Below are positions 8,630-28,133 of a DNA stretch of 31,158 nucleotides, piece by piece. Within the stretch, counting starts at the first letter, position 1. The number at the start of each line of letters is the position of its first letter. The notes beneath the pieces were generated by a model, which searched no databases, had not been told where the DNA came from, and saw only the letters and a list, made by a program, of their open reading frames with translations. The stretch is from Eubacteriales bacterium (GTDB lineage Bacteria; Bacillota_A; Clostridia; Christensenellales; Aristaeellaceae): contig JAQUXV010000004.1 in assembly GCA_028692205.1 (NCBI GenBank), positions 1-31,158 of the forward strand, in the 5' to 3' direction. The position numbers and the translations under genes were made by a program.

Positions 8630-8633
8630 AGGC

Positions 8634-10466: not shown

Positions 10467-10533
10467 ACGGCTTATTACCTCTCTCTTCTTCAGTTGGTAG
10501 GGTCAACACACTGTAGCGTTCTTTTTTTGATGT

Positions 10534-10549
10534 GGCAAAATCCTGCACA
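10534..10549 (-). promoter_or_regulatory. Single inverted copy of the 22-bp-repeat motif facing the kinase gene
   Basis: On the minus strand TGTGCAGGATTTTGCC matches the TGTGTTGGATTTTCC motif of the four tandem-repeat promoters, but without a second copy 22 bp away. It lies about 70 bp before the kinase start and next to the operon's operator, so it could give auto-control. Weak evidence alone. Confidence 0.35.
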
Positions 10550-10614
10550 AACTGGATTTTCCAAATTTCTGTGTTGGATTTTCCATTGAAGGGGGAGGGT
10601 GCATCTCCTATACT
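10548..10614 (+). promoter_or_regulatory. Promoter A with tandem 22-bp operator (sugar operon)
   Basis: Repeat cores TGGATTTT at 10553 and 10575 (22 bp apart), the second as TGTGTTGGATTTTCC. A -35 of TTGAAG (10586-10591) follows directly, then a 17-bp spacer and -10 TATACT (10609-10614). It drives the CBM9-1 gene at 10662 and probably the operon to 20011. The position abutting the -35 suits a class II activator. Confidence 0.75.
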
Positions 10615-10661
10615 CTATTTAGTGACATTTCAGGGGTATTAAACAAGCGGAGGTTTGGATA

Positions 10662-11495
10662 ATGGATCATTTTCTTTTTTTCAGGAAGGCTGCGGCAGTG
10701 GCGCTGACTTTAGGTCTTGTGTGTTCTTCAGCCGTTGCGCTGGCATACTCGGATAAGAATCTGGATGCGCCCAAAGTGAAGGAAATCGTCATCGACGGCG
10801 ACCTTTCGGAATGGGATCTGTCACGCAGCCTGCGCATTGATAATCAGAGCCAGATTATTGATCAGTTGGAGCATTGGGATGATGCGGCTGACTGTGCAAT
10901 GGACCTGAGCGTCATGTGGGATGAGGAGAACCTTTATCTGGCTGTGACCATCAGTGATAAAGACGCTTTTGTGTATCGTGAGGGCTTCCCGCTGGACGAG
11001 CTGGATGCTATTATCTTCTTCCTGAGCACGAACCCCGATGCGAACCCCGCCCGCACCGCGTATGAAGCCACAGACTGGCGATGGACCACCAGCGTTGAGG
11101 ATTATTATGGCGATTGGTTTAACTATATCGACCGTTCTATGATTGCCGACCCCATGGGGTATGAAACCGCGGGCGAGTACGGTGACGAGCGGCTGTTCGA
11201 CGGGGATGATTATCAGGCGGCTTTTATGAAGATTGAGGGAGGCGCAACCTACGAGATCAAGCTGCCGCTGCACTACCTGAGCAACGACCAGCTTCCGGAG
11301 CTGGTACCCGCCGCAGGTCAGACAATCGGCTTTGATTTCTCCATTCTGGATGTGGACCTGCCCTGCCCCGGCATTCACAGCCTGCGCATGCAATCCTCCG
11401 CCAACCTGACCGTTACCGGGGGCCGCAAGCCTGAGATGTACGACGTGGACAACAACCCCAGCCTATGGGGCACGCTGACCTTTGTCGAAGAGTGA
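10662..11495 (+). CDS. Exported CBM9-like carbohydrate-binding protein (CBM9-1)
   Basis: 277 residues. A signal peptide (about 1-28, ending AVALA) precedes one beta-sandwich domain of the CBM9/DOMON-like type: IDGDLSEWD at the start, then WDEENLYLAVTISD, and NPSLWGTLTF at the end. It has no catalytic domain. ATG with CGGAGG 8 nt upstream. First gene after promoter A; only 25 nt separate it from the binding-protein gene. Related in layout to the product at 24634, including the shared PCPG and NPSLWG motifs. Role inferred: binding a sugar or glycan outside the cell, to help the GH3 enzymes or to signal to the sensor kinase. Confidence 0.8.
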   Translation: MDHFLFFRKAAAVALTLGLVCSSAVALAYSDKNLDAPKVKEIVIDGDLSEWDLSRSLRIDNQSQIIDQLEHWDDAADCAMDLSVMWDEENLYLAVTISDKDAFVYREGFPLDELDAIIFFLSTNPDANPARTAYEATDWRWTTSVEDYYGDWFNYIDRSMIADPMGYETAGEYGDERLFDGDDYQAAFMKIEGGATYEIKLPLHYLSNDQLPELVPAAGQTIGFDFSILDVDLPCPGIHSLRMQSSANLTVTGGRKPEMYDVDNNPSLWGTLTFVEE

Positions 11496-11520
11496 GCCGA
11501 ACAGAAGGGGGAGAATCATC

Positions 11521-12885
11521 ATGAAGTTAAACCAGTTAGGTGGCATGGCGCTGGCGGCAATGCTGGCGCTGACAAACACCACCGGTGCGCTGGCTGCAAA
11601 GAATGAGAAGATCGATGCCGCCACGATTGACTTCTCAGCGGTCATTGAAGATACCGCCGAGAAGGGCACCGTCAACGTCTATCACTGGTGGACGGCCGGC
11701 GGTGAAAAGGATGCCATAGAGTCCGTCATCGCCGGATTCAAGAGCGCCTACCCTGAGGAGAAGGCCAAATCCAACGCGATCCCCGGCGGAGCGGGGGGCG
11801 CCATGGTGATGAAAGTCAAGGTGCTGCAACAGGCAGGCAAGAGCCCGGAAGCCTTTCAGGCGCATCCCGGTCAGGAGATACAGCCTTATCTGGATGCAAA
11901 CATGCTGTTGGATTTAAGCAGCTTGTGGGACTACGCCGGGCTGAATGACCGGGTCATTGCCAGCCTGAAGGAGCTGTGCACTGCGTCGGATGGTAAGCAG
12001 TACATTGTCCCCATCGGCATTCACAAGACCAACGTCATCTTCTACAACATTCATGTGTTTGAAAAGTATGGCATTGCGATTCCCGACCATGAAGACATTA
12101 CCTGGGACGAGTTCTGGTCGCTGTGCGATCAGCTGGCGGCTGCGATGCCCGATGGGGAGTATCCCATCGATTTGGGAGATCGCAAAGGCTGGCCGGCCTG
12201 TCAGGTGTTTGAGGATATCATGATGGGAACGAGTCCACAGATTTACGAGGACTTTATCAACGGCAGCTACAACGTGGATGATGTGACAGAAGTCATGAGC
12301 ACTTACGCCAGACTTTTGGACTATGTTGCCCCGGATCACAGCAGCCGGGACTGGTACGAAGCCAGCGGTCAGGTGGTGGCGGGTACCTATGCCATGCAGA
12401 TCATGGGGGCGTGGATGCAACCACTGCTGACCAGCATGGGTCAGGTCTATGGCGAGGATTACGGTGTGTTCACTTTCCCGGGTACGGAAGGCTGGTTTGG
12501 CTTGTGCGTGGACGGCTTTGTTGTGAGCAACGACTCCGCCGATGTGAATGCCGGGATTCGCTGGGCTTATAACGTATCCACCAAATCTGTACAGGAGAGC
12601 TTCTCCGCACTGAAGGAATCCATCTCGCCCTATACCGACACCGACGATTCAATTTACTGCCCGCTGACCCTGCGCTTTAAGGAGCAGATGAACAGCGATT
12701 CTGTGAAGACTTACCCAAGCTTCACCCACGGCACGGCGCTTCCGTGGAGCGCGTCCACCAGCCTGCAGACACAGATTCAGGAATTTGCTACCTCCAGCGA
12801 TCACGACGCGGAATATTTCGCAAACAAGATCGTGAATATTCTGAAAGAAGCTGGAGTGAAAGGAGAATGGCAACTTGTCGATTAA
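11521..12885 (+). CDS. Sugar ABC transporter solute-binding protein, glucose/mannose (GtsA-like) type
   Basis: 454 residues. ATG at 11521 with GGGGGAG 8 nt upstream. Signal peptide (about 1-25), then family-1 binding-protein fold. The motifs VYHWWTAGGE, IGIHKTNVIFYN, SGRDW-like SSRDWYEASG and FPGTEGWFG match the glucose/mannose-binding group best known from Thermus and Pseudomonas. The signal peptide has no cysteine, so it is not a lipoprotein, which is unusual for a Gram-positive importer. The stop overlaps the GH3-A start by 11 bp. Likely delivers monosaccharide (glucose or mannose) to the permeases encoded downstream; substrate is inference from family. Confidence 0.85.
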   Translation: MKLNQLGGMALAAMLALTNTTGALAAKNEKIDAATIDFSAVIEDTAEKGTVNVYHWWTAGGEKDAIESVIAGFKSAYPEEKAKSNAIPGGAGGAMVMKVKVLQQAGKSPEAFQAHPGQEIQPYLDANMLLDLSSLWDYAGLNDRVIASLKELCTASDGKQYIVPIGIHKTNVIFYNIHVFEKYGIAIPDHEDITWDEFWSLCDQLAAAMPDGEYPIDLGDRKGWPACQVFEDIMMGTSPQIYEDFINGSYNVDDVTEVMSTYARLLDYVAPDHSSRDWYEASGQVVAGTYAMQIMGAWMQPLLTSMGQVYGEDYGVFTFPGTEGWFGLCVDGFVVSNDSADVNAGIRWAYNVSTKSVQESFSALKESISPYTDTDDSIYCPLTLRFKEQMNSDSVKTYPSFTHGTALPWSASTSLQTQIQEFATSSDHDAEYFANKIVNILKEAGVKGEWQLVD

Positions 12886-14851
12886 AAATGTAACCAGACG
12901 TGGGGCAGCCATACTCAGCGCATTGGCAGTATCCCTGTCCATGATGAGCGGCGCGGCCTTTGCGGAGGCTACCGCTTATAAGCAGCCTGTTCTGAATCCG
13001 CATGTGAAATCCGTCGTCGAGGCAGACGGTTACCAGTTCATTGACCTGAATGCAAACGGTACGCTTGATGCTTATGAAGACTGGCGGCTGGATGCGGAAA
13101 CCCGCGCTCAGGACCTTGTCGGGCAGATGACCCTGGCCGAGAAGGTCGCGCAGATGCAGCACCCTACCTTCCTGCCCCGTGAAGACGGTAAAATGCCTTC
13201 CTACCTGAGCAGATGGTGCACCGATATGGGCATTGGCATGCTGCTGGTTCGTGAGCTCAACAGCGTGGAAGCCGCGGCGACCTCCATGAACACCATTCAG
13301 GAATATGCCGAATCCAGCCGTCTGGGCGTGCCCATTCTGATCTCCATGGATTCCGTACACGGCCTGTCTTATGTCAGCGGCGCTACGGTAACGCCGCAAA
13401 ACCTGGCGCTGGCTGCCACCCGTGACACCGAGCTGGTGACGAAGCTGGCTGAAGTCGCCCGAAAAGAGCACCTCGCTGTAGGCGTACGCATGACGCTTTC
13501 CCCGGAGGCTGATATTGCCTCCGAACCCCGCTGGGGCCGCGTGATGGAAACTTTCGGCGAGGATCCTGATCTGGTGACCGAGATGGTCAGGGCGCAGATC
13601 GTCGCCTTCCAGAACGGTACCGACGGCCTGAATACCGGCTCCATTGCAGCCTGCATCAAACACTTCCCCGGCGCAGGCCCCCAGATGGAGGGCAAGGACA
13701 CTTCGCCCATCATCTCCAGCGAAGAGACGCTTGAAACGCATCTGAAGCCTTACTATGCGGCTATTGAGGTGAATGTGGCTTCCGTGATGCCCTACTATTC
13801 TGTGCCGCTGACTTTGGATGCTGAAAACTCCGCCATTGGCTCCAAGCTGGTGCTGCAGGATCTCCTGCGTGACAAGATGGGCTTCAAAGGCTTTATCCAG
13901 ACGGACTGGGGCATGATCTGGGCGATTCAGGAAGGCCGCTCCACCATGTCCGGGGAAGAAATTACCGACGATGAAGCCATTGTCATCGGTCTGATGGAGG
14001 GCGGTATCGACGGTATCGGCGGCGAAAGCATTAACATTATTGATCAGATTGAAAATCTGGTGAATAGCGGCGATATTGACGAAGCGACCATCACCGAATC
14101 GGCCCTTCGCATCCTGACAGCCAAGTTTGAACTGGGTGTGTTTGAAAACCCTTATTGCGATGTGGAAGCCGCTGTTGCCACCGTGGGCAGCGAGGAAAGC
14201 CAGAAGCTGAATCTGCAGGCTGCGGAGGAGGCCATGACGCTGCTGAAGAACGACGGTATTCTGCCCTTGAAGGCGGATGCCGGTCAGAATATATTGGTAT
14301 GCGGCCCTCGCGCAGGCGATATGGACAGTCTGGTGGGCGGCTGGTCCTCAAAGCAGGAGGGTAAAACCATTGCGGCGGCGATTGCAGAATACGCAGGAGC
14401 CAGTAGCACGGTGACCTACATTTCGGACGATGTAACTGCCATCACCGAAGCAGCGAAGGATGCGGATATCATCATCGTCTCCATTGGTGAACCCAGCTAC
14501 CAGCATGACCCGCCGTGGGGCTATGACACGCTGGAGATTACCCAGAGCCAGCAGGACATTCTGGACGCGGCAGTCGCCTCTGGCAAGCCTGTGGTAACAG
14601 TGGTGACCGGCGGCCGTCCCTACATCCTGACGTGGTGCGACGAGAACACGCACGCGATTCTGGAAGCTTATTATCCCGGCAGTCAGGGCGGCATCGCCAT
14701 CGCGGAAACGCTGTTTGGCATGAACAATCCTACGGGCAAGACGCCGATTCAGTTCCCCCGCGATATGGAATCGGTCAGGAATCAGGAAGGCGATGTATCT
14801 TTCGATCTGGAAAACCCGCTGTATGATTTTGGCTGGGGCTTGAGCTACTGA
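12875..14851 (+). CDS. Exported glycoside hydrolase family 3 (GH3-A)
   Basis: 658 residues from a TTG start (AAAGGAG 10 nt upstream), overlapping the binding-protein gene. Signal peptide about 1-30 (ends GAAFA), then a short calcium-loop-like segment (DLNANGTLDAYEDWR). The N-terminal GH3 barrel has SMDSVHG, EPRWGR, KHFPGAGP and nucleophile Asp344 (QTDWG). The C-terminal alpha/beta sandwich domain has the GEPSYQHDPPWG motif, with Glu539 the probable acid/base, and closes in YDFGWGLSY. There is no FnIII-like tail. Expected activity: beta-glucosidase or related exo-glycosidase acting outside the cell, releasing sugar for the neighbouring importer. Confidence 0.93.
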   Translation: MSIKNVTRRGAAILSALAVSLSMMSGAAFAEATAYKQPVLNPHVKSVVEADGYQFIDLNANGTLDAYEDWRLDAETRAQDLVGQMTLAEKVAQMQHPTFLPREDGKMPSYLSRWCTDMGIGMLLVRELNSVEAAATSMNTIQEYAESSRLGVPILISMDSVHGLSYVSGATVTPQNLALAATRDTELVTKLAEVARKEHLAVGVRMTLSPEADIASEPRWGRVMETFGEDPDLVTEMVRAQIVAFQNGTDGLNTGSIAACIKHFPGAGPQMEGKDTSPIISSEETLETHLKPYYAAIEVNVASVMPYYSVPLTLDAENSAIGSKLVLQDLLRDKMGFKGFIQTDWGMIWAIQEGRSTMSGEEITDDEAIVIGLMEGGIDGIGGESINIIDQIENLVNSGDIDEATITESALRILTAKFELGVFENPYCDVEAAVATVGSEESQKLNLQAAEEAMTLLKNDGILPLKADAGQNILVCGPRAGDMDSLVGGWSSKQEGKTIAAAIAEYAGASSTVTYISDDVTAITEAAKDADIIIVSIGEPSYQHDPPWGYDTLEITQSQQDILDAAVASGKPVVTVVTGGRPYILTWCDENTHAILEAYYPGSQGGIAIAETLFGMNNPTGKTPIQFPRDMESVRNQEGDVSFDLENPLYDFGWGLSY

Positions 14852-14864
14852 TGAATTAGGCTGG

Positions 14865-14915
14865 CGGCTCTCATGGGCATCGAAGCGTTCTGGCCCATGG
14901 GAGCCGTGTTTTAAA
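14865..14915 (+). terminator. Stem-loop between GH3-A and the permeases
   Basis: CGGCTCTCATGGGC pairs with GCCCATGGGAGCCG (one G-U pair, 14-nt loop), then TGTTTTAAAA. It is a good intrinsic terminator or 3'-stabilising hairpin inside the operon and would lower permease relative to binding-protein output. Confidence 0.7.
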
Positions 14916-14944
14916 AACAAAACAAGGGAAAGGGGACACTACCC

Positions 14945-15976
14945 TTGGAGCAGATACAGGCGTTCTTTGAGAACTTTGGGTACATGACCTTTTCTTCCGA
15001 TCGGGTTTGGATCATTGGCGGCATCCTTCTGGCACTCATCCTGATCTATCAAATGCTGCTCAAGCTGGCACCCAAATCAGTGGCGCTGCCGCATCGGTTC
15101 TTCACTCGGCACCCCCTGATCTGGATCTGTATTCCGGCAGCGCTTTTGATTTATTTTGTATATGTGTCCCTGGGGTGGAATCTGTGGGTATCCGTTTCCG
15201 ATTGGGAGTCCGGGCAGCTGGAGGCCAGCTATGGCTTTGGAGGCTTTGATAATTATGTAAAAATGTTCTCCAGCGCTAATTTCCTGCCATCGTTGGGCAA
15301 CACGCTGCTGCTTTTCTGCCTGATCCCCATCTGCCTGCTGCTGGGGTTAGGTCTGGCACTGCTGATGGATCAGGGCCTGCGTGGCACATCGGTCTTCCGC
15401 ACATTGATCCTTTTGCCCTTCGCGTTGTCCTTTGTGGTGACGGGTACGGTCTGGGCGTACATGTACCGTCCCACGGGCGGGGTGCTAAACTCCTTTCTGG
15501 GGCTGCTGGGTGTCAATGTTTCCGCGGCGATTAAAGACGGAAACTTAATGTGGGCTTCCAGCAACGCGACCATTATGCTATCGATTATCATTGCACTGAT
15601 GTGGCAGTTTTCGGGTTATGTGGCGGTCATCTTCCTTGCGGCCATTAAAAATGTTCCGGTGAATGTGATTAACGCAGCGAAGCTGGACGGCGCTTATATG
15701 CCACGTATCTATTGGCGGCTCATCATACCGCAGCTCAAGGGGGCAATGGGCTCGTGCATTACGATTCTCGCCATGTACGCGCTCAGGTCCTTCGATTTCA
15801 TCGTTTCTCTGGTGGGCTATACCACATCCTCGGCATGGACACTGCCCGTCTGGATGTATAATGAAGCCTTCCAAAATAATAACTTTGCTTACTCCGCGGC
15901 GATTAGCTGTTTCCTGCTCGCGCTTGTGCTGGTTCTGATCCTGCCGCTGACCTACTGGACCAACAAAAGGAAGTGA
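14945..15976 (+). CDS. Sugar ABC transporter permease (MalF/GtsB-like)
   Basis: 343 residues, TTG start with AAAGGGG 9 nt upstream. Two extra N-terminal transmembrane segments (about 20-42 and 57-78) precede the usual six-helix permease core (about 115-340). The cytoplasmic EAA loop, which docks the ATPase, reads VINAAKLDGAYMPRIYWRL. PTGGVLNSFLGLLGV is a common stretch of this permease family. Only 4 nt separate it from the second permease. Forms the membrane channel together with the 15981 product. Confidence 0.93.
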   Translation: MEQIQAFFENFGYMTFSSDRVWIIGGILLALILIYQMLLKLAPKSVALPHRFFTRHPLIWICIPAALLIYFVYVSLGWNLWVSVSDWESGQLEASYGFGGFDNYVKMFSSANFLPSLGNTLLLFCLIPICLLLGLGLALLMDQGLRGTSVFRTLILLPFALSFVVTGTVWAYMYRPTGGVLNSFLGLLGVNVSAAIKDGNLMWASSNATIMLSIIIALMWQFSGYVAVIFLAAIKNVPVNVINAAKLDGAYMPRIYWRLIIPQLKGAMGSCITILAMYALRSFDFIVSLVGYTTSSAWTLPVWMYNEAFQNNNFAYSAAISCFLLALVLVLILPLTYWTNKRK

Positions 15977-15980
15977 TTGC

Positions 15981-16874
15981 ATGCAACGCGGAACAGACAT
16001 TGAGCGCAGCAAGGAAGGGCAAAAAGCCCAAACAGTACAGATTCATCCGAGATGGCACATGACGGTTTTGCACGTTGTGTACTATCTCATCATGGTGGCC
16101 TTTCTGGTGTTCTACATGCTCCCCTTCTGGGGAACGGTCATGACGTCCTTCAAGTCCAACAGTGAAGTCATGACCACCACCCCGATTACCCCGCCTACGG
16201 AATGGACGACGGAAGGCTATGAAAGCGCGCTGGAGGAGCTGACCGGACCGCTGTGCACAAGTCTGGTGGTCACGATCTTTGGCGCGGCGGGTTCGCTTTT
16301 CATGGGTTCCATTTGCGCCTATGCCCTGAGCAAATGGAAGTTCAGGCTGAACAACGTATTCTTTATTGCGCTGGTTGCGGCAACCTATCTGCCTTTTCAG
16401 GCGATCTTGATCCCGTTGCTACAGACGATTAACGCGCTTAATCTGTATGACAACATCTGGGGCTTGGTTCTGGTGCATACCGTCTTTGGCATGCCCATGT
16501 GCACGGTCATGATGCGCGGTTATTACGCGGATGTGCCCGATGCGCTGATACGGCAAGCAATGATTGATGGCAACGGAACCTGGCAGATTTACCGCAAGAT
16601 CATTCTGCCAAACACTATGATTGCTACCATCACCGTGTTTGTTTTCCAATGCACCTCCATCTGGAACGAGATGCTTTTCGCACTGGTGTTGGGCGGTTAT
16701 GATTCTAAGCCCGCCACCATTGCCCTGAACGAGCTGGCCGGAACGATGGCCGCCGAATTCAACGTTCAGATGGCCGGTTCTTTGTTGCTTGCACTGCCGG
16801 TGCTTGTGCTATATATTTTCATGGGGAAATACCTGATCAGTGGACAAATGAACGGCGCCGTTACAGCGTCCTGA
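15981..16874 (+). CDS. Sugar ABC transporter permease (MalG/GtsC-like)
   Basis: 297 residues with six transmembrane segments and the EAA loop PDALIRQAMIDGNGTWQIYRK followed by ILPNT. N-terminal cytoplasmic tail of about 25 residues. The start ATG lies 4 nt past the previous stop, with AAAGGAAG upstream. Inner-membrane partner of the 14945 product. Confidence 0.93.
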   Translation: MQRGTDIERSKEGQKAQTVQIHPRWHMTVLHVVYYLIMVAFLVFYMLPFWGTVMTSFKSNSEVMTTTPITPPTEWTTEGYESALEELTGPLCTSLVVTIFGAAGSLFMGSICAYALSKWKFRLNNVFFIALVAATYLPFQAILIPLLQTINALNLYDNIWGLVLVHTVFGMPMCTVMMRGYYADVPDALIRQAMIDGNGTWQIYRKIILPNTMIATITVFVFQCTSIWNEMLFALVLGGYDSKPATIALNELAGTMAAEFNVQMAGSLLLALPVLVLYIFMGKYLISGQMNGAVTAS

Positions 16875-16897
16875 CAAATTGAGGAGGCAACTTGAAA

Positions 16898-18844
16898 ATG
16901 AATTGGGCAAAACGTTTTCTGGCACTGACTACAGTCGCGCTACTGGCTTTCTCCACCTCGGCTTTCGCGGAAGAAGCGGACGAGGAAACGATACCTGCGG
17001 TAGAGGTTACAACCATTACGCAGGAATATGAAGGCCGCGAAATCGTACTGAAAACGGCGGAGCTTGATCTGATTGAGGCGGACGGCTATCAGTTCAAAGA
17101 TTTAAATAAAGACGGTGCCCTGCAACCCTATGAGGACTGGCGGCTGTCGGCTGAGGAGCGCGCTGAAAATTTGCTGACGCTGATGAGCGACGAGCAAAAA
17201 GCCGCGCAGATGGCTCACATGACAATGGTCACGCTGAAGGAAAGCTGGTTTTCCGATCTGGATATCGGCTTTGCCCTGACCTATACCTTTTTTGGTGAGG
17301 GGAAGGAAAGCACTGTTGGTAAAATGAACTACATCCAGTCTCTGTGCGAAAGCAGTCAACTGGGGGTGCCCGTGGTTTTCTCGATGGACTCGGTCATTGG
17401 GGCAAGCTGGATCAATGACACGACCATTATGCCCGACGCCATCACCCTGGCGGCTACTGGCGACGTGACGCTGGTGCAGGAGATTGCCGATATTCAGCGT
17501 CAGGAGATGAAGGCGCTGGGTGTGCGCATGAGCTTATCCCCCAATGCCGATTTGGCGACCGATCCCCGCTGGGGGCGCAATCAGGAGACGTACGGCGAGG
17601 ATGCGGATACCGCCAAAGCGATGGTGAAAGCTGCGGTAACCGGCTTACAGGCCGGCACCGAGGGCTTAACCACCGATTCGGTCATGGCCTGTGTGAAGCA
17701 TTTCCCGGGTTCCGGTCCGCAGACTGCGGGGGTGGACGGAACGCCGCTGGTGTTTGATGACGAAACTTTTGCGCTGCATTTGAGCATCTTCGAGGCGGCT
17801 ATGGAGGTCAACCCGGCGTGTATCATGCCCTACGGTTATTCGACCGTGCCTTACCTGGGTGGCGACGCTGTGGAAAATTACGCCCATGAGTCGTATACCG
17901 TCATGACGGAGCTACTGCGTGAGAAGATGGGTTATCAGGGCATCATCCACACCGATTGGGGTCTGAGCGCAATCTCCGAGGTGCAGGCGGGTGCGGATGC
18001 CGTGGGCGGCATGGGTCAGCGGGATATTAAGAAATTGCTGGATCAGGTGGATTCAAGCACCCTGACCGAACGCTGCCGCCGACTGTTGGTGGCGAAGTTC
18101 AAGCTGGGCGTGTTTGAGAATCCTTTCATCACGCTGGAGGATGTGAATGCCTCCGTCGGAACGGAGGAACACTACCAGAAGGCTTTGGAAGCCGCCGAGA
18201 AAGGCGTGACCTTGGTCAAGTATGAGAACCAAACCGCATTGGAGGGTCAGCATATAATCGTGGCCGGTTATCTGGCCAAGGATGTGGATGCCCTCTCCAG
18301 CGGCTGGAAGCTATCCTCTGAAAACGGCTTGAAAACCGAAGGGAAATCCATTTTCGAGGCCATTGAAAACCGCGCGGGCGCGGATAAGGTGACATACATC
18401 GCCGATGCTTCCGAGGTAGAGTCCAGCTATCCCGAAGGGACGACCGCCATCGTGGTGGTTGGCGAAGCCAGCGGCACCCATGAACCGGCTTGGGGATCGG
18501 CCACGCTGGAATTCCCAGAAGACCAGATTGCGCTGGTGAACGAACTGGATGCGGCCGGCGTAAACGTTATTTCCGTGGTGCTGATGAACCGCGCTTATGT
18601 CATGACGCCTGTCGACACAGCCTCCGATGCGGTGCTGATTGCCTATCGCCCCGGGGTAACTGCGGGCGCAGAGGCGGTAGCGCACGCGCTCTTTGGCGAC
18701 AGTGCAATTTCCGGCAAACTGCCCTGGCAAATCCCCGCAACGATGGATTCCGTGCTGCTCCAGCGTGAGGATCTGCCTAAGGATATCGAGGCGCCGCTAT
18801 ACGACTACGGCTTCGGCATCGAAGTAGCCTCCTTCGGCAAATAA
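16898..18844 (+). CDS. Exported glycoside hydrolase family 3 (GH3-B)
   Basis: 648 residues from ATG 16898, preferred over the in-frame TTG at 16892 because GAGGAGG (16881-16887) is 10 nt away from the ATG and only 4 from the TTG. Signal peptide to about residue 24 (STSAFA). The same DLNKDGALQPYEDWR segment as in GH3-A, then the barrel with SMDSVIG, DPRWGR, KHFPGSGPQ and nucleophile Asp353 (HTDWG). The C-terminal domain carries VVGEASGTHEPAWG with Glu523 as likely acid/base. All key residues are present. It lies between permease and ATPase genes in one operon. Substrate probably a beta-glucoside; A and B are diverged enough to differ in linkage preference. Confidence 0.93.
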   Translation: MNWAKRFLALTTVALLAFSTSAFAEEADEETIPAVEVTTITQEYEGREIVLKTAELDLIEADGYQFKDLNKDGALQPYEDWRLSAEERAENLLTLMSDEQKAAQMAHMTMVTLKESWFSDLDIGFALTYTFFGEGKESTVGKMNYIQSLCESSQLGVPVVFSMDSVIGASWINDTTIMPDAITLAATGDVTLVQEIADIQRQEMKALGVRMSLSPNADLATDPRWGRNQETYGEDADTAKAMVKAAVTGLQAGTEGLTTDSVMACVKHFPGSGPQTAGVDGTPLVFDDETFALHLSIFEAAMEVNPACIMPYGYSTVPYLGGDAVENYAHESYTVMTELLREKMGYQGIIHTDWGLSAISEVQAGADAVGGMGQRDIKKLLDQVDSSTLTERCRRLLVAKFKLGVFENPFITLEDVNASVGTEEHYQKALEAAEKGVTLVKYENQTALEGQHIIVAGYLAKDVDALSSGWKLSSENGLKTEGKSIFEAIENRAGADKVTYIADASEVESSYPEGTTAIVVVGEASGTHEPAWGSATLEFPEDQIALVNELDAAGVNVISVVLMNRAYVMTPVDTASDAVLIAYRPGVTAGAEAVAHALFGDSAISGKLPWQIPATMDSVLLQREDLPKDIEAPLYDYGFGIEVASFGK

Positions 18845-18886
18845 GCATCGGCCAGCCGAAATGAATTCAGAAGGAAGGAATCGGAA

Positions 18887-20011
18887 ATGGCTTCGATTAC
18901 CATTCAAGATATGGATATCACCTATAACAAGGGCAAGACCAAGGTGATCAATGGCGTTAACCTTGAGATAGAGGATGGAGAGTTCTGCGTATTCCTCGGC
19001 CCCTCCGGCTGCGGAAAGTCTACAGCCATGTACTCCATTGCTGGCCTGTTACACCCCAGCCGCGGCAAGATCAGCTTTGGCGACGAGGTGATGACAGAGG
19101 TTAACGACAAAGGCAAGGACAAGACGTTTGTGCCTCCGCAGGAGCGTAACATCGCCATGGTCTTTCAGGAATATGCTTTGTATCCCAACATGACCGTTCG
19201 AAGAAACATGTCCTTCGCACTGGAAACCAAGAAGGCTTCCAAGGCGGAGATCGACAAACGCGTAACGGCCATGTCGTCCATGCTTGGTCTGGATGAGCTG
19301 CTGGATCGCAGACCCGCGCAGCTCTCGGGGGGCCAGCGGCAGCGTGTTGCGCTTGGCCGCGCCCTTGTGCGTGATCCGCAGGTGTTTCTTCTGGATGAGC
19401 CGCTGGGAAATCTGGATGCAAAACTTCGGGATCAGGTGCGTTATGAGCTGAAGAAAATTCAGACCAAGCTGGGCATCACCACGGTTTATGTCACTCATGA
19501 CCAGACCGAGGCCATGACCATGGCCGACCATATCGTGCTGATGAAGGACGGGCGTATCATGCAGCAAGGTACGCCGAATGATCTGTACAGTCATCCCAAT
19601 TGCCTGTTTGCCGCAAGCTTTGTAGGCACCCCCCAGATCAATAAGCTGCAGTGCAGGGTTGTGTCGGAGGAAGGCAACATCAAGCTGGTATGTGACCAGC
19701 TGGTTTTAAACGCCCCTGATGATGTGAAGGAGCTGCTCAGGCTCTATGAGGGTAAGGAAGTCATCATCGGTATCCGCCCGTCGGAGTTGGCGCTTGCGCC
19801 GGAGGGCCAAGGCGAGCTGAACGGCATTGTGGACAGCGTTGAGCCTTTGGGCGACGGTTTCCATGTGTATCTGAACGTGGACGGTCAGGTGCTGGTAGCT
19901 AAAATCGCCGGTGGCAGCACCGTCATCGGCAAAACCCTTTCGCTGAACATCGAAAACGGCAAAATGCACATCTTTGACAGTGTAACGGAAGAAAGGCTGA
20001 ATATCGGCTGA
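18887..20011 (+). CDS. Sugar ABC transporter ATP-binding protein (MsmX/UgpC/MalK type)
   Basis: 374 residues. Walker A GPSGCGKST (about 39-47), Q-loop FQEYALYPNM, signature LSGGQRQRVALGRAL, Walker B VFLLDEPLGNLD, H-loop VTHDQTEAM; C-terminal TOBE-type regulatory domain from about 240. ATG with AAGGAAGG about 8 nt upstream. Last gene of the operon, energising the two permeases. Directly downstream lies a decayed second copy of its 3' end, so the gene was once duplicated in tandem. Confidence 0.95.
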   Translation: MASITIQDMDITYNKGKTKVINGVNLEIEDGEFCVFLGPSGCGKSTAMYSIAGLLHPSRGKISFGDEVMTEVNDKGKDKTFVPPQERNIAMVFQEYALYPNMTVRRNMSFALETKKASKAEIDKRVTAMSSMLGLDELLDRRPAQLSGGQRQRVALGRALVRDPQVFLLDEPLGNLDAKLRDQVRYELKKIQTKLGITTVYVTHDQTEAMTMADHIVLMKDGRIMQQGTPNDLYSHPNCLFAASFVGTPQINKLQCRVVSEEGNIKLVCDQLVLNAPDDVKELLRLYEGKEVIIGIRPSELALAPEGQGELNGIVDSVEPLGDGFHVYLNVDGQVLVAKIAGGSTVIGKTLSLNIENGKMHIFDSVTEERLNIG

Positions 20012-20039
20012 TTGCTAAATCAAACAAGAAGTGGGACAG

Positions 20040-20457
20040 GCGGGCTCAGCTTCGAACTCCGCGCCCATCCCTGCACTGTCAACGGAGGGGCAGGGCGGGC
20101 GGAACGCCCTTACAGACAGCGTTGAGTCTTTGAATGATGACATCCATGGATCCATGAACCCAGGTAAGCGCTGAATCAATGCTCTTCACGCCTGCCTTCG
20201 CAGAACGCCGCTGCTTCGGGCTCAAAAAACCTTGAAATAGCGCCGCCATTCCTGCGGCTTTTCTTACCTAAATCAACGACGCTCAGCTATGGCAGCCGCA
20301 AAGCCATTGAATCATCGCTTACCTAGACGGTCGGGTGTGGGTGGCGTAAGTTACCGGTGGCCGTACCGCCATCGGCAGGACCCGCTCACCGAACATGCAG
20401 AAGGGTTCATTCGACCTTTTCGACAGCGTTGCCGAAGCATGTTTGAGCATCGGCTGA
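20040..20457 (+). pseudogene. Decayed duplicate of the ABC ATPase 3' end, split by a MITE
   Basis: Bases 20084-20126 match 19801-19843 of the ATPase at 34 of 43 positions. Bases 20326-20457 align with 19880-20011 over exactly 132 nt without gaps and end at the same stop codon. Translated, GGRTAIGRTRS and LFDSVAEACLSIG mirror GGSTVIGKTLS and IFDSVTEERLNIG of the real gene, with an internal stop. Matching weakens to the left of about 20050. A 163-bp repeat (20162-20324) interrupts it without any net gain or loss of target bases. Confidence 0.8.
20162..20324. mobile_element. 163-bp MITE-like element, copy 2, with 20-bp terminal inverted repeats
   Basis: The left end AGGTAAGCGCTGAATCAATG and the reverse complement of the right end, AGGTAAGCGATGATTCAATG, differ at only two of 20 positions. 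It is inserted into the ATPase pseudogene. A diverged copy of the same length and orientation is at 4831-4993. Too short to code for a transposase, so it would depend on one supplied elsewhere. No target-site duplication is evident. Confidence 0.75.
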
Positions 20458-20473
20458 CCGTCAGACAACCCTG

Positions 20474-20500
20474 AAAGCGGGAGCATACACCTCCCGCTTT
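20474..20500 (+). terminator. Terminator at the end of the sugar operon region
   Basis: AAAGCGGGAG and CTCCCGCTTT form a perfect 10-bp stem around a 7-nt loop; outer CCCT and AGGG can extend it, and a T-rich run (TTATCTTTCTT) follows. It lies just past the pseudogene, insulating promoter B. Confidence 0.7.
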
Positions 20501-20534
20501 TAGGGTTATCTTTCTTCAGGAGACGGCCCCAGAA

Positions 20535-20601
20535 CGTGTTAGATTTTACAAAATGCAGTGCTGGAATTTCCCTTTTTATTTCCCCCGGATGTCTTTATCA
20601 T
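20535..20601 (+). promoter_or_regulatory. Promoter B with tandem 22-bp operator (GH3-C)
   Basis: Repeat cores TAGATTTT (20540) and TGGAATTT (20562), 22 bp apart. -10 TATCAT at 20596-20601, exactly 34 nt after the second core start; the -35 (TTTTTA) is weak, which fits activator dependence. Confidence 0.7.
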
Positions 20602-20709
20602 AATAGCAAAGGTGGATATTCGCCTGAATCACTTGGTATGGAAGGGAGGCTCAATTCTTTTTTGAGAATATCCAAACCCACTGCAATAAAACAGATTTGG
20701 AGGGCTAAC

Positions 20710-23223
20710 ATGAAAAAAATTGCTTTGTTACTGGCGGCATTGATGGTGTTTTCCTGTATCCCCACCTCCGCGCTGATGGAGAGTGCTCCCGCCGTTAAGG
20801 AATCTTCTTCAGGCTTCTACTATGTGGAGGCGGATGAGGCAACGGGTCAAGCCCGGCTGAGCGCGTCCAGCCAGGACATGTTCATTCAGGCGGATGGCCT
20901 GTATTTCAAGGACCTGAACAAGAACGGCTCCCTGGATGTTTATGAAGATTATCGTCAGGATGTCACGGTGCGCGTGAATGATCTTCTGGGTCAGATGACC
21001 ATGGAAGAAAAGGCGGGTACGCTGGGCTTCGGCGGTATTGGCGGCAAGAATGGCATTACCGTTTCAAACCTGTCGGGGGACAGCCTGTCGACCGGTCAGA
21101 CCGGCGTTTCCTTCATCCAGCCGGACAGCGAGCAGATGAATAACGAAACCGACACGTTAATCACGGTGGATGAAATTATTTATACGCCCGTTGCTTATCA
21201 GATCAAGCAAATGAATCTGACCACCATGATTGCCGCGATGACCGGCAACCCCAAAGATCAGCTGGATGTGCTGAACAAGATCCAGTCGATCGCGGAAGAA
21301 AATCGCCTTGGCATTCCGGTGGTGTTCTCGGGCGACCGCACCTACAACACCTGGGGCGGCATGATCGACGCGGCGCATTACGCGCTGGGCGTAGCCCATG
21401 ACGAAGATCTGCTGTACAACCTGCTGTCCGAATATGCCAAAGAATCCGTTGCCCTGGGCTATACGCAGGTGTTCCACGGCTATGGCAACGAAATCGGCTC
21501 CTGGTATGGCGACGATCCCTCCTACATTGCCACGATGTCCGCACTTGAAACCCGCGCCTATGAGGACAACGGTTTTAACAGCCATTCCAAGCACTTTATT
21601 GCCCGCGGCGGCCGCAACTCCTATGCCGCAGCCCGCAGTGAAGCCGATTTGATCGACTCCTGGCTGGTTGGCTGGAAGGCCGTTGTGGATGCAGGCACAC
21701 AATGGATCATGACCAATAATAACATTGGGCGTACCGAAGGTTTGTACACGGTTCTTGATCGTACAACCTATTCCATCCTGCGTGATGATCTGGGATACAA
21801 GGGGATCATCTGTCTGGATTGGCCGCTGGGCGCGGATCGCATTGATGCGCTGACCGGCACCACTGCGGATGGCGTTGACGTGACCACGCTGAGCATTGAA
21901 GAAAAGTATGCGCTGATCATGAATGTCGGCATCGACATGTTCTCCTGCTATGGCGCGACGCCTGGCACCGATCTGGCCAGCTATGCCGAGCTGACCAACA
22001 ACTTCTATCCCGAAATCGTGATTGCAGCTGTGAATGACGGCCTCGTTACGGAAGAGGACTTCAACACCCACGTCAGCCGTGTGCTGAAGAACAAGTTTGA
22101 CCAGAAGCTGTTTGAAGATCCCTACTCGGATTGGGAAGCGGCTGCCGCGCTGCTCGTCAACGAACAGTATATCGCCGATGGCATGCCCACCGTGCTGAGC
22201 AATGCGGAGATTGACAAATATCGCCGCACCGAAGTGGCGGACATGGAAGAGCAGCTGATGGTCGAATCTACCATCATGCTCAAGAACGACAACGTTCTGC
22301 CTCTGGCCGCGAGCGCCAAGGTTTATCTGTTCTCAAATAACGGCTCCATTCAGGAAGAAGAAGATGCCGCTCTGGCGGAGAAGCTGACGGTTGTGGATAC
22401 GCTGGCGGATGCCGATGTTGCGCTGATCCATGTGACCGCCTTTGACGATGCTTACGATCTGGCTGTGGAAGACGCTCAGGATGCAGGCAAGCCCATCATC
22501 CTGATCTATGAGGGCACGATTGGCCGTAGCGGCGCACAGGGCGATCCCTACTACGATCAGGTGTCCACGGCCGCCGCAGTGCTGGTGCAAACGTACAGCA
22601 ACACGCCCGACCATGGTTCCTCCGTCGGTTCCTTCTATCGCTATGTAACGCCTTCCGTGACGGTAGCGATGCTCATGGGCGAAAAGGATCCCGCCGGTTC
22701 CACTGTGTTTGAGGTGCCATATAATGTTTCCGACCTGATCCTTTCCAATTATGAGTTGCAAAACGATGTGGGCACAGACGCCAAAACGCGCCTGTACATG
22801 ACCATGATGGCAAAGGACGATCCGACCTCTGTGCCCAACAACATGGGCGATGCCATGTATACCACCAACTTCGGCATGAGTTATGCGAAGACTGCTGACA
22901 TTCAGCTGAGCCTGCTGAGCGTCGATCAGGATTACACGGTCGAAGCCTATGTGGATTCTCGCGGACGCGACGCGACCCGCAACGTCATCACCAATAAGGT
23001 GCAAAAAGCGGGCGTGCCCTTCGATATCGCCTTCGTTGCCCAGAATAATGGCGGTGACGGAACCATCAACGTGCAGGTTCTGGACGGCGAAACGGTGGTT
23101 GCCGAGAAGTTCCTGGGCGTTGACGGCGGTCAGTGGCGCGTTGTGAACATGGAGCTGACCCTTGAGGCCGGCGAACATGTGATCACAATTGGGAACATGA
23201 CCACCACCATCACCGTGGAGTAA
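20710..23223 (+). CDS. Exported divergent glycoside hydrolase family 3 protein (GH3-C)
   Basis: 837 residues from ATG 20710 (GGAGG 7 nt upstream; the longer open frame upstream crosses promoter B). Signal peptide to about residue 21. DLNKNGSLDVYEDYR segment, then a GH3 barrel with KHF (in SKHFIARGG) and probable nucleophile Asp370 (ICLDWPLG). The usual RWGR motif is replaced by FHGYGNEIGSWYGDDP, and the sandwich domain lacks the GE(P/A)S acid/base motif found in GH3-A and GH3-B. A C-terminal extension of about 95 residues looks like a CARDB/CBM6-type beta-sandwich (LLSVDQDYTVEAYV to the end). A different substrate or a weak or absent catalytic function is possible. Monocistronic, with its own promoter and terminator. 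Confidence 0.88.
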   Translation: MKKIALLLAALMVFSCIPTSALMESAPAVKESSSGFYYVEADEATGQARLSASSQDMFIQADGLYFKDLNKNGSLDVYEDYRQDVTVRVNDLLGQMTMEEKAGTLGFGGIGGKNGITVSNLSGDSLSTGQTGVSFIQPDSEQMNNETDTLITVDEIIYTPVAYQIKQMNLTTMIAAMTGNPKDQLDVLNKIQSIAEENRLGIPVVFSGDRTYNTWGGMIDAAHYALGVAHDEDLLYNLLSEYAKESVALGYTQVFHGYGNEIGSWYGDDPSYIATMSALETRAYEDNGFNSHSKHFIARGGRNSYAAARSEADLIDSWLVGWKAVVDAGTQWIMTNNNIGRTEGLYTVLDRTTYSILRDDLGYKGIICLDWPLGADRIDALTGTTADGVDVTTLSIEEKYALIMNVGIDMFSCYGATPGTDLASYAELTNNFYPEIVIAAVNDGLVTEEDFNTHVSRVLKNKFDQKLFEDPYSDWEAAAALLVNEQYIADGMPTVLSNAEIDKYRRTEVADMEEQLMVESTIMLKNDNVLPLAASAKVYLFSNNGSIQEEEDAALAEKLTVVDTLADADVALIHVTAFDDAYDLAVEDAQDAGKPIILIYEGTIGRSGAQGDPYYDQVSTAAAVLVQTYSNTPDHGSSVGSFYRYVTPSVTVAMLMGEKDPAGSTVFEVPYNVSDLILSNYELQNDVGTDAKTRLYMTMMAKDDPTSVPNNMGDAMYTTNFGMSYAKTADIQLSLLSVDQDYTVEAYVDSRGRDATRNVITNKVQKAGVPFDIAFVAQNNGGDGTINVQVLDGETVVAEKFLGVDGGQWRVVNMELTLEAGEHVITIGNMTTTITVE

Positions 23224-23242
23224 GACATTCACCACAAACCGG

Positions 23243-23276
23243 GGAGGGAGCTGCTTTTGGGCAGCTCCCTCCTTTT
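23243..23276 (+). terminator. Strong intrinsic terminator after GH3-C
   Basis: GGAGGGAGCTGC and GCAGCTCCCTCC form a perfect 12-bp stem with a TTTTGG loop, followed by TTTT. It lies 20 bp after the GH3-C stop. Confidence 0.9.
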
Positions 23277-23283
23277 GTGAATC

Positions 23284-23350
23284 TGTGTTGGATTTTGCAA
23301 AGGCCAGTATTGGATTCTCACTTGCGGCACAGGGAAAATGCCAGTATGCT
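23284..23350 (+). promoter_or_regulatory. Promoter C with tandem 22-bp operator (foldase gene)
   Basis: Repeat cores TGGATTTT (23289, in TGTGTTGGATTTTGC) and TGGATTCT (23311). -35 TTGCGG directly after the second repeat, 17-bp spacer, -10 TATGCT at 23345-23350. Confidence 0.7.
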
Positions 23351-23376
23351 TTGAAAAAGGAAGGAATGAAGAAGAT

Positions 23377-24510
23377 ATGAGAAACGTGCGGAAGCTGCTT
23401 GCGTTGTTGCTGGCCGCGATCGTCTGGATGGGGTGCGCCGCGGCCGAGGAGGCCGCGCAGATCGCCGCAGTCGTGAACGGAGAAGATGTGCTGCAAAGCG
23501 AGGTAGATACCCAGTTGGCATATTACAGACAGCTCTATGCCGAAAACGGAGTGGACACAGCGGATGAAACCATCGCTGCTTATTTGGAGAGCATGGCGCT
23601 GACGGCGGCGATTTCCGACCGTCTCCTGGTGCAGGACATGACGGCCAAAGGGGTGTTTGCCTTCACGGAGGAGGAAACAAGCGATATCCAGAGCGAGGCG
23701 CAGAGCACCTATGCGGCACTCGCAACGCAGAGGATAACAGCCTACAGGAGCACAGAGGAGGGCGCGGCGGCATCGGATGACGAAGCGCTGGCCTATGCTG
23801 AGAACGATTTACAACAGCGTGGCTACACTCTGGCGTATTTCAATCAGTACTATCGGAACGACGTGGCATCTCAAAAGTACGCCGACCTGCTTATGGAGGG
23901 CGAGACGATTTCCGATGAGGAGGTGCAAACCGCCTATGAGGCGCGGGTGGCGGAGAGCAAAACGGCCTATGAAGGGAATGTATCGGCTTATGAAACGGCG
24001 CTGAACAACGGCGAGGAGGTTTGGTATGTCCCGGCAGGCTATCGCAATGTGCTGCAAATTTTGATTCGCTCAGATGCCGAGGACAAGCTGGCGGATACGG
24101 CGGATACAGTGGCGGCGATCTACTCGGCACTGGAGGCGGGCACGCCGTTTGAAGAGCTGATTCGTACCTATGGGGAGGACAGCGCCTTTGATATAGAGTC
24201 TTTCTTCAGCACCGGCTACATGGTAAACAAGGATTCTGTTCTTTGGGACGATGCCTTTGTAGAGGCCGCCTTTTCCGAGGATATGCTTGAGCCGGGGGAT
24301 TATACCGGCACGGCAATCGAAAGCGACGTGGGGGTTCACATTCTGTATTATCTGAGTGATCACCCCGCGGGCGTTGTAGAACTGACAGATGACGTGAAGG
24401 AAGCGCTGCGGGAAACGCTATACGGGGAGACGGCCAACCAGCGGGTGCAGGCCCGGCTGGCCGTCTTGCAGGATGAGGCCGATGTGCAGCTGACGAGCGA
24501 CACGCAATAA
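23377..24510 (+). CDS. Exported PrsA/SurA-like foldase (PpiC-type)
   Basis: 377 residues. Signal peptide with a possible but imperfect lipobox (WMGC, Cys19), so it may be membrane-anchored. The N-terminal SurA_N/PrsA chaperone region (about 27-200) begins VAVVNGEDVLQSEVDTQL-like, as in this family. A PpiC parvulin-like domain (about 222-345) has NVLQILI where active family members have a His (RHILI), ending in GVHILYYL. Peptidyl-prolyl isomerase activity may therefore be weak. It has its own copy of the 22-bp operator, so it is probably dedicated to folding the secreted proteins of this locus. ATG chosen after AAGGAAGG (12 nt). Confidence 0.8.
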   Translation: MRNVRKLLALLLAAIVWMGCAAAEEAAQIAAVVNGEDVLQSEVDTQLAYYRQLYAENGVDTADETIAAYLESMALTAAISDRLLVQDMTAKGVFAFTEEETSDIQSEAQSTYAALATQRITAYRSTEEGAAASDDEALAYAENDLQQRGYTLAYFNQYYRNDVASQKYADLLMEGETISDEEVQTAYEARVAESKTAYEGNVSAYETALNNGEEVWYVPAGYRNVLQILIRSDAEDKLADTADTVAAIYSALEAGTPFEELIRTYGEDSAFDIESFFSTGYMVNKDSVLWDDAFVEAAFSEDMLEPGDYTGTAIESDVGVHILYYLSDHPAGVVELTDDVKEALRETLYGETANQRVQARLAVLQDEADVQLTSDTQ

Positions 24511-24512
24511 GC

Positions 24513-24579
24513 TGTGCTTGAAAGTACAAAGTGCTGTGTCAGAATTTCCATTGCAACCAAAGCTATCCCCCGCTATACT
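24513..24579 (+). promoter_or_regulatory. Promoter D with tandem 22-bp operator (CBM9-2 gene)
   Basis: TGTGCTTGAAAGTACAAA and TGTGTCAGAATTTCC repeats with core starts at 24518 and 24540. -35 TTGCAA, 17-bp spacer, -10 TATACT at 24574-24579. It begins 2 nt after the foldase stop. Confidence 0.7.
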
Positions 24580-24633
24580 TTTTGTATATACGGATCGATT
24601 CTCCGGTTTGGAGAGAAAGATAGGAGATATACG

Positions 24634-25422
24634 ATGATGAAAAAGCTTGCAATGCTTCTTGCCCTGATGCTGGCCGCAATGACGCTGTGCACGGCGGCGC
24701 TTGCCGAAACCGCGCAGACCCCCTCACTCACGGCCCACAGGGTTGAAACGGCGCCCACGATTGATGGCGATCTTTCCGATTGGGATCTTTCCTCCGCGGC
24801 CGAGCTGACCGACGCTGAACAGGTGATCCGCGATTTGTTTTTTTGGCAGGGCACAAATGACCTGTCCGCCAAGGTCTACGTTGCTTATGACGCGGAGAAC
24901 CTTTACTTGGCCTTTGACGTGACCGAGGATACCCCCTTTGGCGCTATCGAGATGCTGACGCTGGACGGTGAGGACAACATCAAACTGTACATTTCCACCG
25001 ATCCTGCCGACGATCCCGCCAGAACCGAATACCACACCAACGATTTTCTGCTGTACCTCATCACCGACGGTGAATATTATGATACCGCGTTTGACCGTTC
25101 CATGCTGGCCAAAGATTATCGTATGCGCTTCATCAGCCGCGGCATGGACGGCGGCGAGGATGTGCTGACCGGCTATCAGGCTAAGGCGGTAGCTTCCACC
25201 ACGGGCTATATCTGGGAGTGCGCCATACCGCTGGCTAACTTCGCCAATGAAAAAATCGCCCAGTATACCCCGCAATCCGGCGATACGGTAAAGTTTGACG
25301 TCGCTCTTACGGATATCTCTTATCCATGCCCCGGTACCGAATATATCCCCCAGATTGCATGGTGCGGGAACCTCGATATCAACAAGAATCCCAGCTTGTG
25401 GGGTAATTTGGTTTTTGAATAA
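24634..25422 (+). CDS. Exported CBM9-like carbohydrate-binding protein (CBM9-2)
   Basis: 262 residues. Start at tandem ATGs (24634, 24637), AGGAG 7 nt upstream. Signal peptide to about 24 (AALA), then one beta-sandwich of the same type as the product at 10662: IDGDLSDWDL, YDAENLYLAFDVTED, then PCPGTEY and NPSLWGNLVF at the end. No catalytic domain. The shared C-terminal motifs mark the two as paralogs. Role as for CBM9-1: extracellular glycan binding, inferred. Confidence 0.8.
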   Translation: MMKKLAMLLALMLAAMTLCTAALAETAQTPSLTAHRVETAPTIDGDLSDWDLSSAAELTDAEQVIRDLFFWQGTNDLSAKVYVAYDAENLYLAFDVTEDTPFGAIEMLTLDGEDNIKLYISTDPADDPARTEYHTNDFLLYLITDGEYYDTAFDRSMLAKDYRMRFISRGMDGGEDVLTGYQAKAVASTTGYIWECAIPLANFANEKIAQYTPQSGDTVKFDVALTDISYPCPGTEYIPQIAWCGNLDINKNPSLWGNLVFE

Positions 25423-25440
25423 GAGGAATTGCGGAACTTC

Positions 25441-25473
25441 ATGCAGGGCGTTTCGGCGTCCTGCATTTTCTTC
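25441..25473 (+). terminator. Terminator between CBM9-2 and the beta-helix gene
   Basis: ATGCAGGGCG and CGTCCTGCAT form a 10-bp stem (one G-U) with a TTTCGG loop, then TTTTCTT. It sits only 18 nt before the next ATG with no separate promoter seen, so read-through or anti-termination would be needed for the beta-helix gene. Confidence 0.8.
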
Positions 25474-25490
25474 CCCTTCGGAGGCGAAAC

Positions 25491-26999: not shown

Positions 27000-27012
27000 G
27001 CGTTCTTCTTTT

Positions 27013-27380
27013 TCACGGAAGGCAGTGCGATGAGTATACAGAAATCACGCACTGCGAAAAATGGTGCCGTTGTTGCCATGAGAGCCGATGATACTGCGCG
27101 AAAACAGATAGATAAAGCCGTTGATCCTGCTGATCACGCCCGACAATATCCAGCACTGCTTTGTTATCCGTTCGCTTTTCTTTATGCATGATAAAGGCGC
27201 CATCAGCAGCGCCCAGCAATCCATTGGTTCCGGAAATGGTCTCAAAGCAATCTTCCGCACTTTGCTTCCGGGTATGGTGGACGAGAAGAATACAGATGTT
27301 ATACTGATCGGCAAACACCTTAAGTTTCGTTACGATGTCATAATCGCTTGCGTAGCTATACTTTTCGCCGCCTACATAAG
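27013..27380 (-). pseudogene. RepA-like AAA ATPase, internal/C-terminal fragment
   Basis: Only the part from VGGEKYSYASDYD onward remains: LLVHHTRK, SGTNGLLGAADGAF and GRDQQDQRLYL, typical of RepA/DnaB-like ATPases of integrative elements. Walker A and the N-terminus are missing. It is joined directly to a truncated integrase on its 5' side, in another frame. The C-terminus is also lost after QRLYL. A second copy of the same region lies at about 28280-28480. Confidence 0.75.
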
Positions 27381-28027: not shown

Positions 28028-28133
28028 CTATGACGCTCACGAAACGCTGCAAAGGTTTTAGGTACTTTGTGTACGTGATCGTCCTGCAATCTGGATAACG
28101 AGCATGCAATGCGATGTAAGCTCCTGAGATGAT

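Follow-up and report, generated by a model that had tools for sequence, protein, structure and literature searches.

Tandem operators with a fixed promoter geometry in a YesM/YesN-linked transporter and glycosidase cluster

Genes and predicted transcription units

The window, by which we mean the whole 31-kb stretch of DNA analysed here and from whose first letter all coordinates count, carries a minus-strand kinase/regulator pair that faces a transporter/enzyme operon, followed by the genes for a GH3 glycosidase (GH3-C), a foldase and a CBM9-like protein (CBM9-2). The regulator (7148-8629, minus strand), the proposed binder of the operators described below, is a YesN-type response regulator with Response_reg at residues 4-116 (Pfam, 1.5e-22) and HTH_18 at residues 410-488 (Pfam, 1.3e-20), that is, a receiver domain combined with a C-terminal AraC-type helix-turn-helix (HTH) domain. 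Adjacent to it lies the gene for a YesM-type sensor histidine kinase (8634-10466, minus strand; Pfam His_kinase, 3.7e-21), a membrane sensor whose putative extracellular part is assigned from a dCache_1 match below the cut-off. The kinase and the regulator are encoded by two genes, which probably share one operon. Two other DNA-binding proteins, of PadR type and HTH_3 type, were found among the 25 open reading frames scanned (47 of at least 120 amino acids are listed), and both are encoded outside the cluster.

The predicted plus-strand operon begins with CBM9-like protein 1 (CBM9-1; 10662-11495; Pfam CBM9_1, 1.4e-7), which is 33% identical to its paralogue CBM9-2. It continues with the solute-binding protein (SBP) of a sugar ABC transporter (11482-12885; Pfam SBP_bac_1, with sugar- and glucose-binding chains among its matches in the PDB), GH3 glycosidase A (12875-14851; Pfam, and β-glucosidases and β-xylosidases in the PDB), two ABC permeases (14945-15976 and 15981-16874; Pfam BPD_transp_1), GH3 glycosidase B (16892-18844; Pfam) and the sugar ABC transporter ATPase (18887-20011; Pfam ABC_tran and OB_MalK). 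Downstream on the same strand are GH3-C (20710-23223; Pfam Glyco_hydro_3, 4.6e-10 for the reading frame from 20536), the putative foldase (23377-24510) and CBM9-2 (24634-25422; Pfam CBM9_1, 8.6e-11 for the reading frame from 24514). The listed reading frames of these last three genes start within an operator or promoter. The likely starts at 20710, 23377 and 24634 fit a ribosome-binding site and a signal-peptide-like N-terminus; for GH3-C, the listed start at 20536 falls inside the operator, and the start was therefore moved to 20710, an ATG preceded by a ribosome-binding site. Export is predicted from N-terminal sequences by eye, and CBM9-1, GH3 glycosidase A and the foldase each have a signal-peptide-like N-terminus by this reading. 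The foldase appears PrsA/SurA-like from several weak matches, sub-threshold in both Pfam (SurA_N, just below the cut-off) and NCBIfam (peptidylprolyl isomerase, 1.5e-11), together with a match to the parvulin chain HP_0175 (8.6e-5).

A terminator-like hairpin of 17 pairs (20467-20507, plus strand) lies just 5′ of the GH3-C operator, and an inverted repeat followed by a T run, seen by eye and absent from the hairpin list, lies just 5′ of the foldase operator. These two elements suggest that GH3-C and the foldase gene are probably separate transcription units. Scans of the window against Rfam (gathering scores) and for tRNAs gave no matches.

Tandem operators and promoter geometry in the window

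Four plus-strand promoters in the window are preceded by two copies of a half-site with the consensus ~GTnYTGGAWWTTMC by direct reading. At CBM9-1 the two copies are AAACTGGATTTTCC (10549-10562), which lacks GTG, and GTGTTGGATTTTCC (10571-10584); together they span 10549-10584. The GH3-C operator (20536-20571) consists of GTGTTAGATTTTAC (20536-20549) and GTGCTGGAATTTCC (20558-20571), that of the foldase gene (23285-23320) of GTGTTGGATTTTGC (23285-23298) and GTATTGGATTCTCA (23307-23320), and that of CBM9-2 (24514-24549) of GTGCTTGAAAGTAC (24514-24527), a weak half-site (p 0.002), and GTGTCAGAATTTCC (24536-24549). All were read directly and also scored by matrix. The first-pass annotation had described motif pairs 22 bp apart at these four promoters, and this is confirmed to the base: the core starts are 10553/10575, 20540/20562, 23289/23311 and 24518/24540, exactly 22 bp apart in every pair. 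Thus two direct half-sites lie about two helical turns apart at all four promoters, and each half-site is itself bipartite, with a conserved GT and a conserved T about one helical turn apart.

The promoter elements are placed with equal precision. A −10 hexamer (TATACT, TATCAT, TATGCT and TATACT, in gene order) starts 34 nt past the second core start in all four cases, and a −35 region (TTGAAG, TTTTTA, TTGCGG and TTGCAA) starts 11 nt past the second core, leaving a 17-bp spacer. When the hexamers and offsets were re-read, the earlier description of a −10 at 34 nt, a 17-bp spacer and a −35 region following the repeat held at each promoter. The resulting promoter-like sites, identified by hexamer match on the plus strand, lie at 10586-10614 (TTGAAG-17-TATACT) for the unit of CBM9-1, SBP, GH3, permease, GH3 and ATPase genes, at 20573-20601 (TTTTTA-17-TATCAT) for GH3-C, at 23322-23350 (TTGCGG-17-TATGCT) for the foldase gene and at 24551-24579 (TTGCAA-17-TATACT) for CBM9-2. 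The −35 regions match TTGACA at 4, 3, 3 and 4 of 6 positions in the same order and are therefore weak. The downstream half-site adjoins the −35, which is the position expected of an AraC-type activator.

The operator and its geometry are non-random. In leave-one-out runs with a 38-bp tandem matrix, three operators were used for training and both strands of the window were scanned for the fourth, and each time the held-out operator was the best untrained position, at 27.4-35.2 bits (E 2e-9 to 1.3e-5 for the window; best non-site, 14.5 bits). A matrix scan of the remainder of the 31-kb window found no fifth tandem. Furthermore, among 58 offsets tried (12-69), 34 is the only one that reaches at least 14/24 matches to TATAAT summed over the four promoters; it scores 19/24, and the chance of such a score at one offset is 1.6e-8 under independent bases. 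Pairwise identity among the four promoters is 60-69% in the operator, 6-35% in the spacer and 10-38% in the flanks. Operators that are alike between unrelated flanks and spacers point to selection on the site rather than to copied promoters.

A third half-site, GTGCAGGATTTTGC, adjoins the CBM9-1 operator in inverted orientation (10535-10548, minus strand). It was absent from the first-pass annotation. At 13.8 bits it is the best off-site half-site match in the window (next, 11.6); found post hoc, it has an E of 0.0027 for the 195-bp intergenic region and 0.43 for the window. It overlaps the −35 of a divergent promoter-like site (TTGCCA-17-TACAGT; 10510-10538, minus strand) that faces the kinase/regulator operon and is proposed from a consensus match only, and such consensus sites number 17 in 10400-27100, with 10.8 expected.

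The layout beside related regulators

Homologues of the regulator at 73-87% identity, retrieved by a protein search that returns no gene context, are named Pullichristensenella and Aristaeellaceae. Clearly related regulators occur in 4 of 291 genomes of the class of genome G001, with the same four found in 391. A scan of genome contigs for closer relatives returned 10 loci, the best of them 42% identical in one segment (Anaerocolumna, L001), where no convincing operator site was seen. No relatives were found in viral contigs. No regulator was returned from the order of G447 (35 genomes) or from a phylum sample (398 genomes), both at E 1e-60; among the 7 genomes in the order of G084, searched at E 1e-65, only G084 itself was returned, and that of G072 (30 genomes) gave none at E 1e-75, a threshold stricter than G072's own match and therefore uninformative. 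The marker GuaA reached at best 68% identity in the sampled genomes (45 of 299 at E 1e-84; 6 of 247 at E 1e-80), so the sampled genomes seem to lack the lineage of the window. Its taxonomic placement goes by names only, those of the regulator homologues above and of GuaA fragments named Christensenellaceae (89% over 78% of the query).

The same layout is found at the yesMN loci L029, L030 and L031, whose regulators have the three best profile scores among 33 fetched YesN loci. The tandem site precedes the SBP gene adjoining the regulator in L031 and L029, and in L030 it precedes a gene for a GH78 rhamnosidase just 5′ of the kinase gene. In the raw scan with the window matrix the L029 site was second-best and the L030 site tied best, and they were picked partly by location and −10. 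At all three sites (L031, L029 and L030, respectively) a −10 (TATTAT, TAACAT, TAAAAT) lies at exactly +34, outside the matrix; offset +34 scores 14/18, the highest over offsets 14-69 (next, 11).

The L030 and L031 sites were subsequently held out in genome-wide scans of 10 genomes, L029 entering no hold-out. Model R1 combined the four window sites with those of L029 and L030, and model R2, run on the same genomes, combined them with those of L031 and L029; ranks refer to 150 candidates scored of 157-1668 per genome. With R1 in G039 (3.1 Mb), the held-out site adjoining the regulator ranked first among the candidates scored (E 0.052; next, 0.68). With R2 in G084 (3.9 Mb), a new site (C2:184810-184876, E 9.4e-4) ranked first and the held-out site (C2:167194, E 0.0068) second among the candidates scored, both less than 12 kb from the regulator (C2:171929-173443). 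The new site, part of no model, lies ahead of genes for an SBP and two permeases, with TACAAT at +34; with R1 it came third among the candidates scored (E 0.031), behind a training site and a match inside a long open reading frame. In six genomes without such a regulator locus the best E was 0.039-0.46 with R1 (0.039 in G064) and 0.046-0.62 with R2, and in G157, away from its regulator, it was 0.017 with R1 and 0.035 with R2. Since the best E elsewhere is as low as 0.017, the G039 result is carried by rank and location, not by E. Matches on G072 C97, G072 C26, G084 C7 and G157 C8 were judged by eye to be chance.

With these, all eight operators, four in the window and four from three other genomes, fit the 22-bp and 34-nt spacings, the 22-bp spacing being imposed by the matrix for three of the four relatives' sites. 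Over the 16 half-sites, the counts at four positions are G 15/16, T 15/16, T 15/16 and T 16/16; the GT/YT box hardly changes (15, 15 and 15 of 16), and the last two positions vary. An extended −10 is present at all four relatives' sites and at none of the four window promoters. The layout-bearing regulators are 29% identical to that of the window overall and 46-49% in the HTH domain. Their first HTH resembles that of the window (SQTYLSRLLRKY), reading SQTYLSRLFRKY in both L030 and L031 and SQAYLSKLFRKY in L029. The presumed first recognition helix is nearly unchanged between the window and its layout-bearing relatives, and the second has drifted. We infer that the first helix reads the GT/YT box and the second the TTMC box.

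The operator code looks clade-specific among YesN regulators. A YesN-wide code was considered and is not supported: 45 of 100 fetched loci were entered, a full YesN was recognisable in 33 of them and the other 12 were set aside, and over the 33 the window matrix did no better than 200 permuted matrices. In 5 of 33 loci its best upstream match was accompanied at +34 by a −10 scoring 4/6 or better (permuted mean 2.6, maximum 8), and the mean match was 2.00, as against 1.79 (sd 0.21) for the permuted matrices. Three of the five loci are L029, L030 and L031, and the other two are L083 and L099. L085 and L091 gave an identical site and look like one locus entered twice. Model R3, built on the window sites only, was run on 24 sources. 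In 441 kb of sequence, L029-L031 among it, the model returned the four sites it was built from plus a single weak match (E 0.11) and recovered none of the relatives' sites. The tandem layout was not found at the regulator locus of the fourth-best YesN (L032, in G157; 27% identical overall, 40% in the HTH domain) nor at more distant YesN loci. These results are why the code seems clade-bound.

A proposed switch and its relation to known systems

We consider it highly probable that the tandem site is the operator of the cluster's own YesM/YesN system and serves class-II-type activation of the four units. The membrane kinase (8634-10466) would sense an extracellular signal, probably a sugar, and phosphorylate the response regulator (7148-8629). 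A pair of regulator DNA-binding domains would then fill both direct half-sites, whose 22-bp offset corresponds to about two helical turns, and both HTHs of a single AraC-type domain would contact each half-site, at the GTnYT box and the TTMC box, which are about one turn apart. Abutting the weak −35, the downstream subunit may recruit RNA polymerase in the manner of a class-II-type activator. The unit of CBM9-1, the ABC transporter and GH3 glycosidases A and B would thus be co-activated with GH3-C, the putatively exported foldase and CBM9-2 from predicted transcript starts. The first-pass annotation had proposed that the 7148-8629 regulator binds here and that the four units form one regulon. 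This prediction is supported by the receiver domain and AraC-type HTH, the bipartite half-site and its place beside the −35. Independent support comes from the layout at the three relatives' yesMN loci and from recovery of the held-out site at the regulator's locus in both genomes tried.

Different AraC-type regulators can have similar half-sites, and another regulator, of the AraC family or not, encoded elsewhere in the genome might bind these operators, with the local YesN serving other promoters. We regard this as unlikely, since the layout travels with the regulator clade, the top sites among the candidates scored lie at the yesMN locus in both hold-out genomes, and no fifth tandem was found in the rest of the 31-kb window. 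Slightly less likely still is that the regulator represses, the tandem keeping the promoters shut until a signal arrives from the kinase. The inverted half-site (10535-10548), overlapping the divergent −35, does occupy a position where binding could repress; however, the sites of all four main promoters are upstream of a weak −35 (3-4/6), and such sites of AraC-type regulators in Caldicellulosiruptor bescii are read as activator sites (PMC8579813). That the four promoters are recent duplicates sharing the motif by ancestry is very improbable: CBM9-1 and CBM9-2 are indeed paralogues, but the spacers and flanks have far lower identity than the operators, and the layout recurs in other genomes before SBP and GH78 genes.

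Activation by the local YesM/YesN pair can be extended to a wider proposal, which we offer tentatively and would stop just short of favouring. One grammar (GTnYTGGAWWTTMC twice at 22 bp, with a −10 at +34) would be common to a YesN clade only ~29% identical, the GT/YT box and first HTH staying nearly constant as the second box and HTH drift, in combination with a partial −35 in the window or an extended −10 in the relatives. The foldase would be co-driven, so that folding capacity rises with the secreted enzymes, and the inverted half-site would tie in the regulator operon. Gut and rumen Clostridia commonly carry YesM/YesN pairs. To our knowledge few of them have a defined operator, which makes their regulons hard to read from sequence. 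If true, a fixed-geometry operator that recurs beside relatives would make regulons of uncultured species predictable, and a foldase under the same switch would be a concrete link between enzyme secretion and folding capacity.

The kind of switch is already known; the foldase is an unusual target, and the operator is well supported. An operator of this description was not found in titles and abstract openings of the open-licence literature, and the passages of three further reports give context and no operator for comparison (PMC4780118, PMC11253607, PMC10766802). Among the nearest known counterparts are the C. bescii systems, e.g. BxgRS, in which a kinase and an AraC-type response regulator also lie beside an ABC sugar transporter with tandem repeats; for three of the five AraC-type two-component regulators there, the tandem repeats lie upstream of promoter elements and the regulator is interpreted as an activator (PMC8579813). 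The C. bescii sites were set against mapped transcript starts, whereas the window starts are predicted, and the likeness concerns layout (PMC8579813).

The XydS/XydR system of Clostridium (Ruminiclostridium) cellulolyticum also has an AraC-type response regulator, and direct repeats and a resemblance at the predicted −35 have been noted for it; knock-out and EMSA experiments established that XydR acts on the xyl-doc cluster next to it and on one gene elsewhere. Its targets, however, are CBM6-containing proteins, and the passages of that report define no operator (PMC3572039). Bacteroides hybrid systems likewise use an AraC-type domain and direct repeats to control polysaccharide loci, but there the kinase and regulator form one polypeptide rather than two gene products, and the repeats (16+5, 12+9 or 14+6 bp) have a period of 20-21, as against 22 in the window (PMC3878776).

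The arrangement of two direct half-sites about two turns apart, with the downstream one touching the −35, is also that of Escherichia coli AraC at I1-I2. E. coli AraC binds the sugar itself, whereas the regulator of the window has a receiver domain and a partner kinase.

An additional half-site and a partial repeat within the cluster

A third, inverted half-site (10535-10548) lies between CBM9-1 and the divergent operon encoding the YesM-type kinase and YesN-type regulator, and points to possible autoregulation of that operon. Downstream of the ABC ATPase gene, 77 nt (20083-20159) share 71% identity with 19800-19876, part of the end of that gene, and this segment of the long gap preceding GH3-C is perhaps its decayed partial duplicate.

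The region beyond CBM9-2

CBM9-2 is followed by a terminator-like hairpin (25441-25466) and then by a gene for a right-handed beta-helix protein (25491-26999), at which a matrix scan of the window found no tandem operator; this gene may be expressed by read-through or may not be part of the regulon. Beside the cluster, 27013-29000 perhaps represents the remains of a mobile element, comprising an integrase-like fragment (27356-28027, minus strand; Pfam match below cut-off) and an AAA_25/YgjP-like ORF (28134-29000).

Promoters and gene content in relatives

At the G084 locus L125, a dCache chemotaxis-receptor-like gene (8322-10475) lies downstream of the solute-binding protein and permease genes preceded by the new operator, and sugar taxis is perhaps encoded there together with uptake.

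An extended −10 (TGn) is present in all four relatives' promoters (L031, 9022-9091; L029, 11009-11078; L030, 3193-3262; L125, 4810-4879), whereas none of the four window promoters carries one; three of the latter have TTG at −35.
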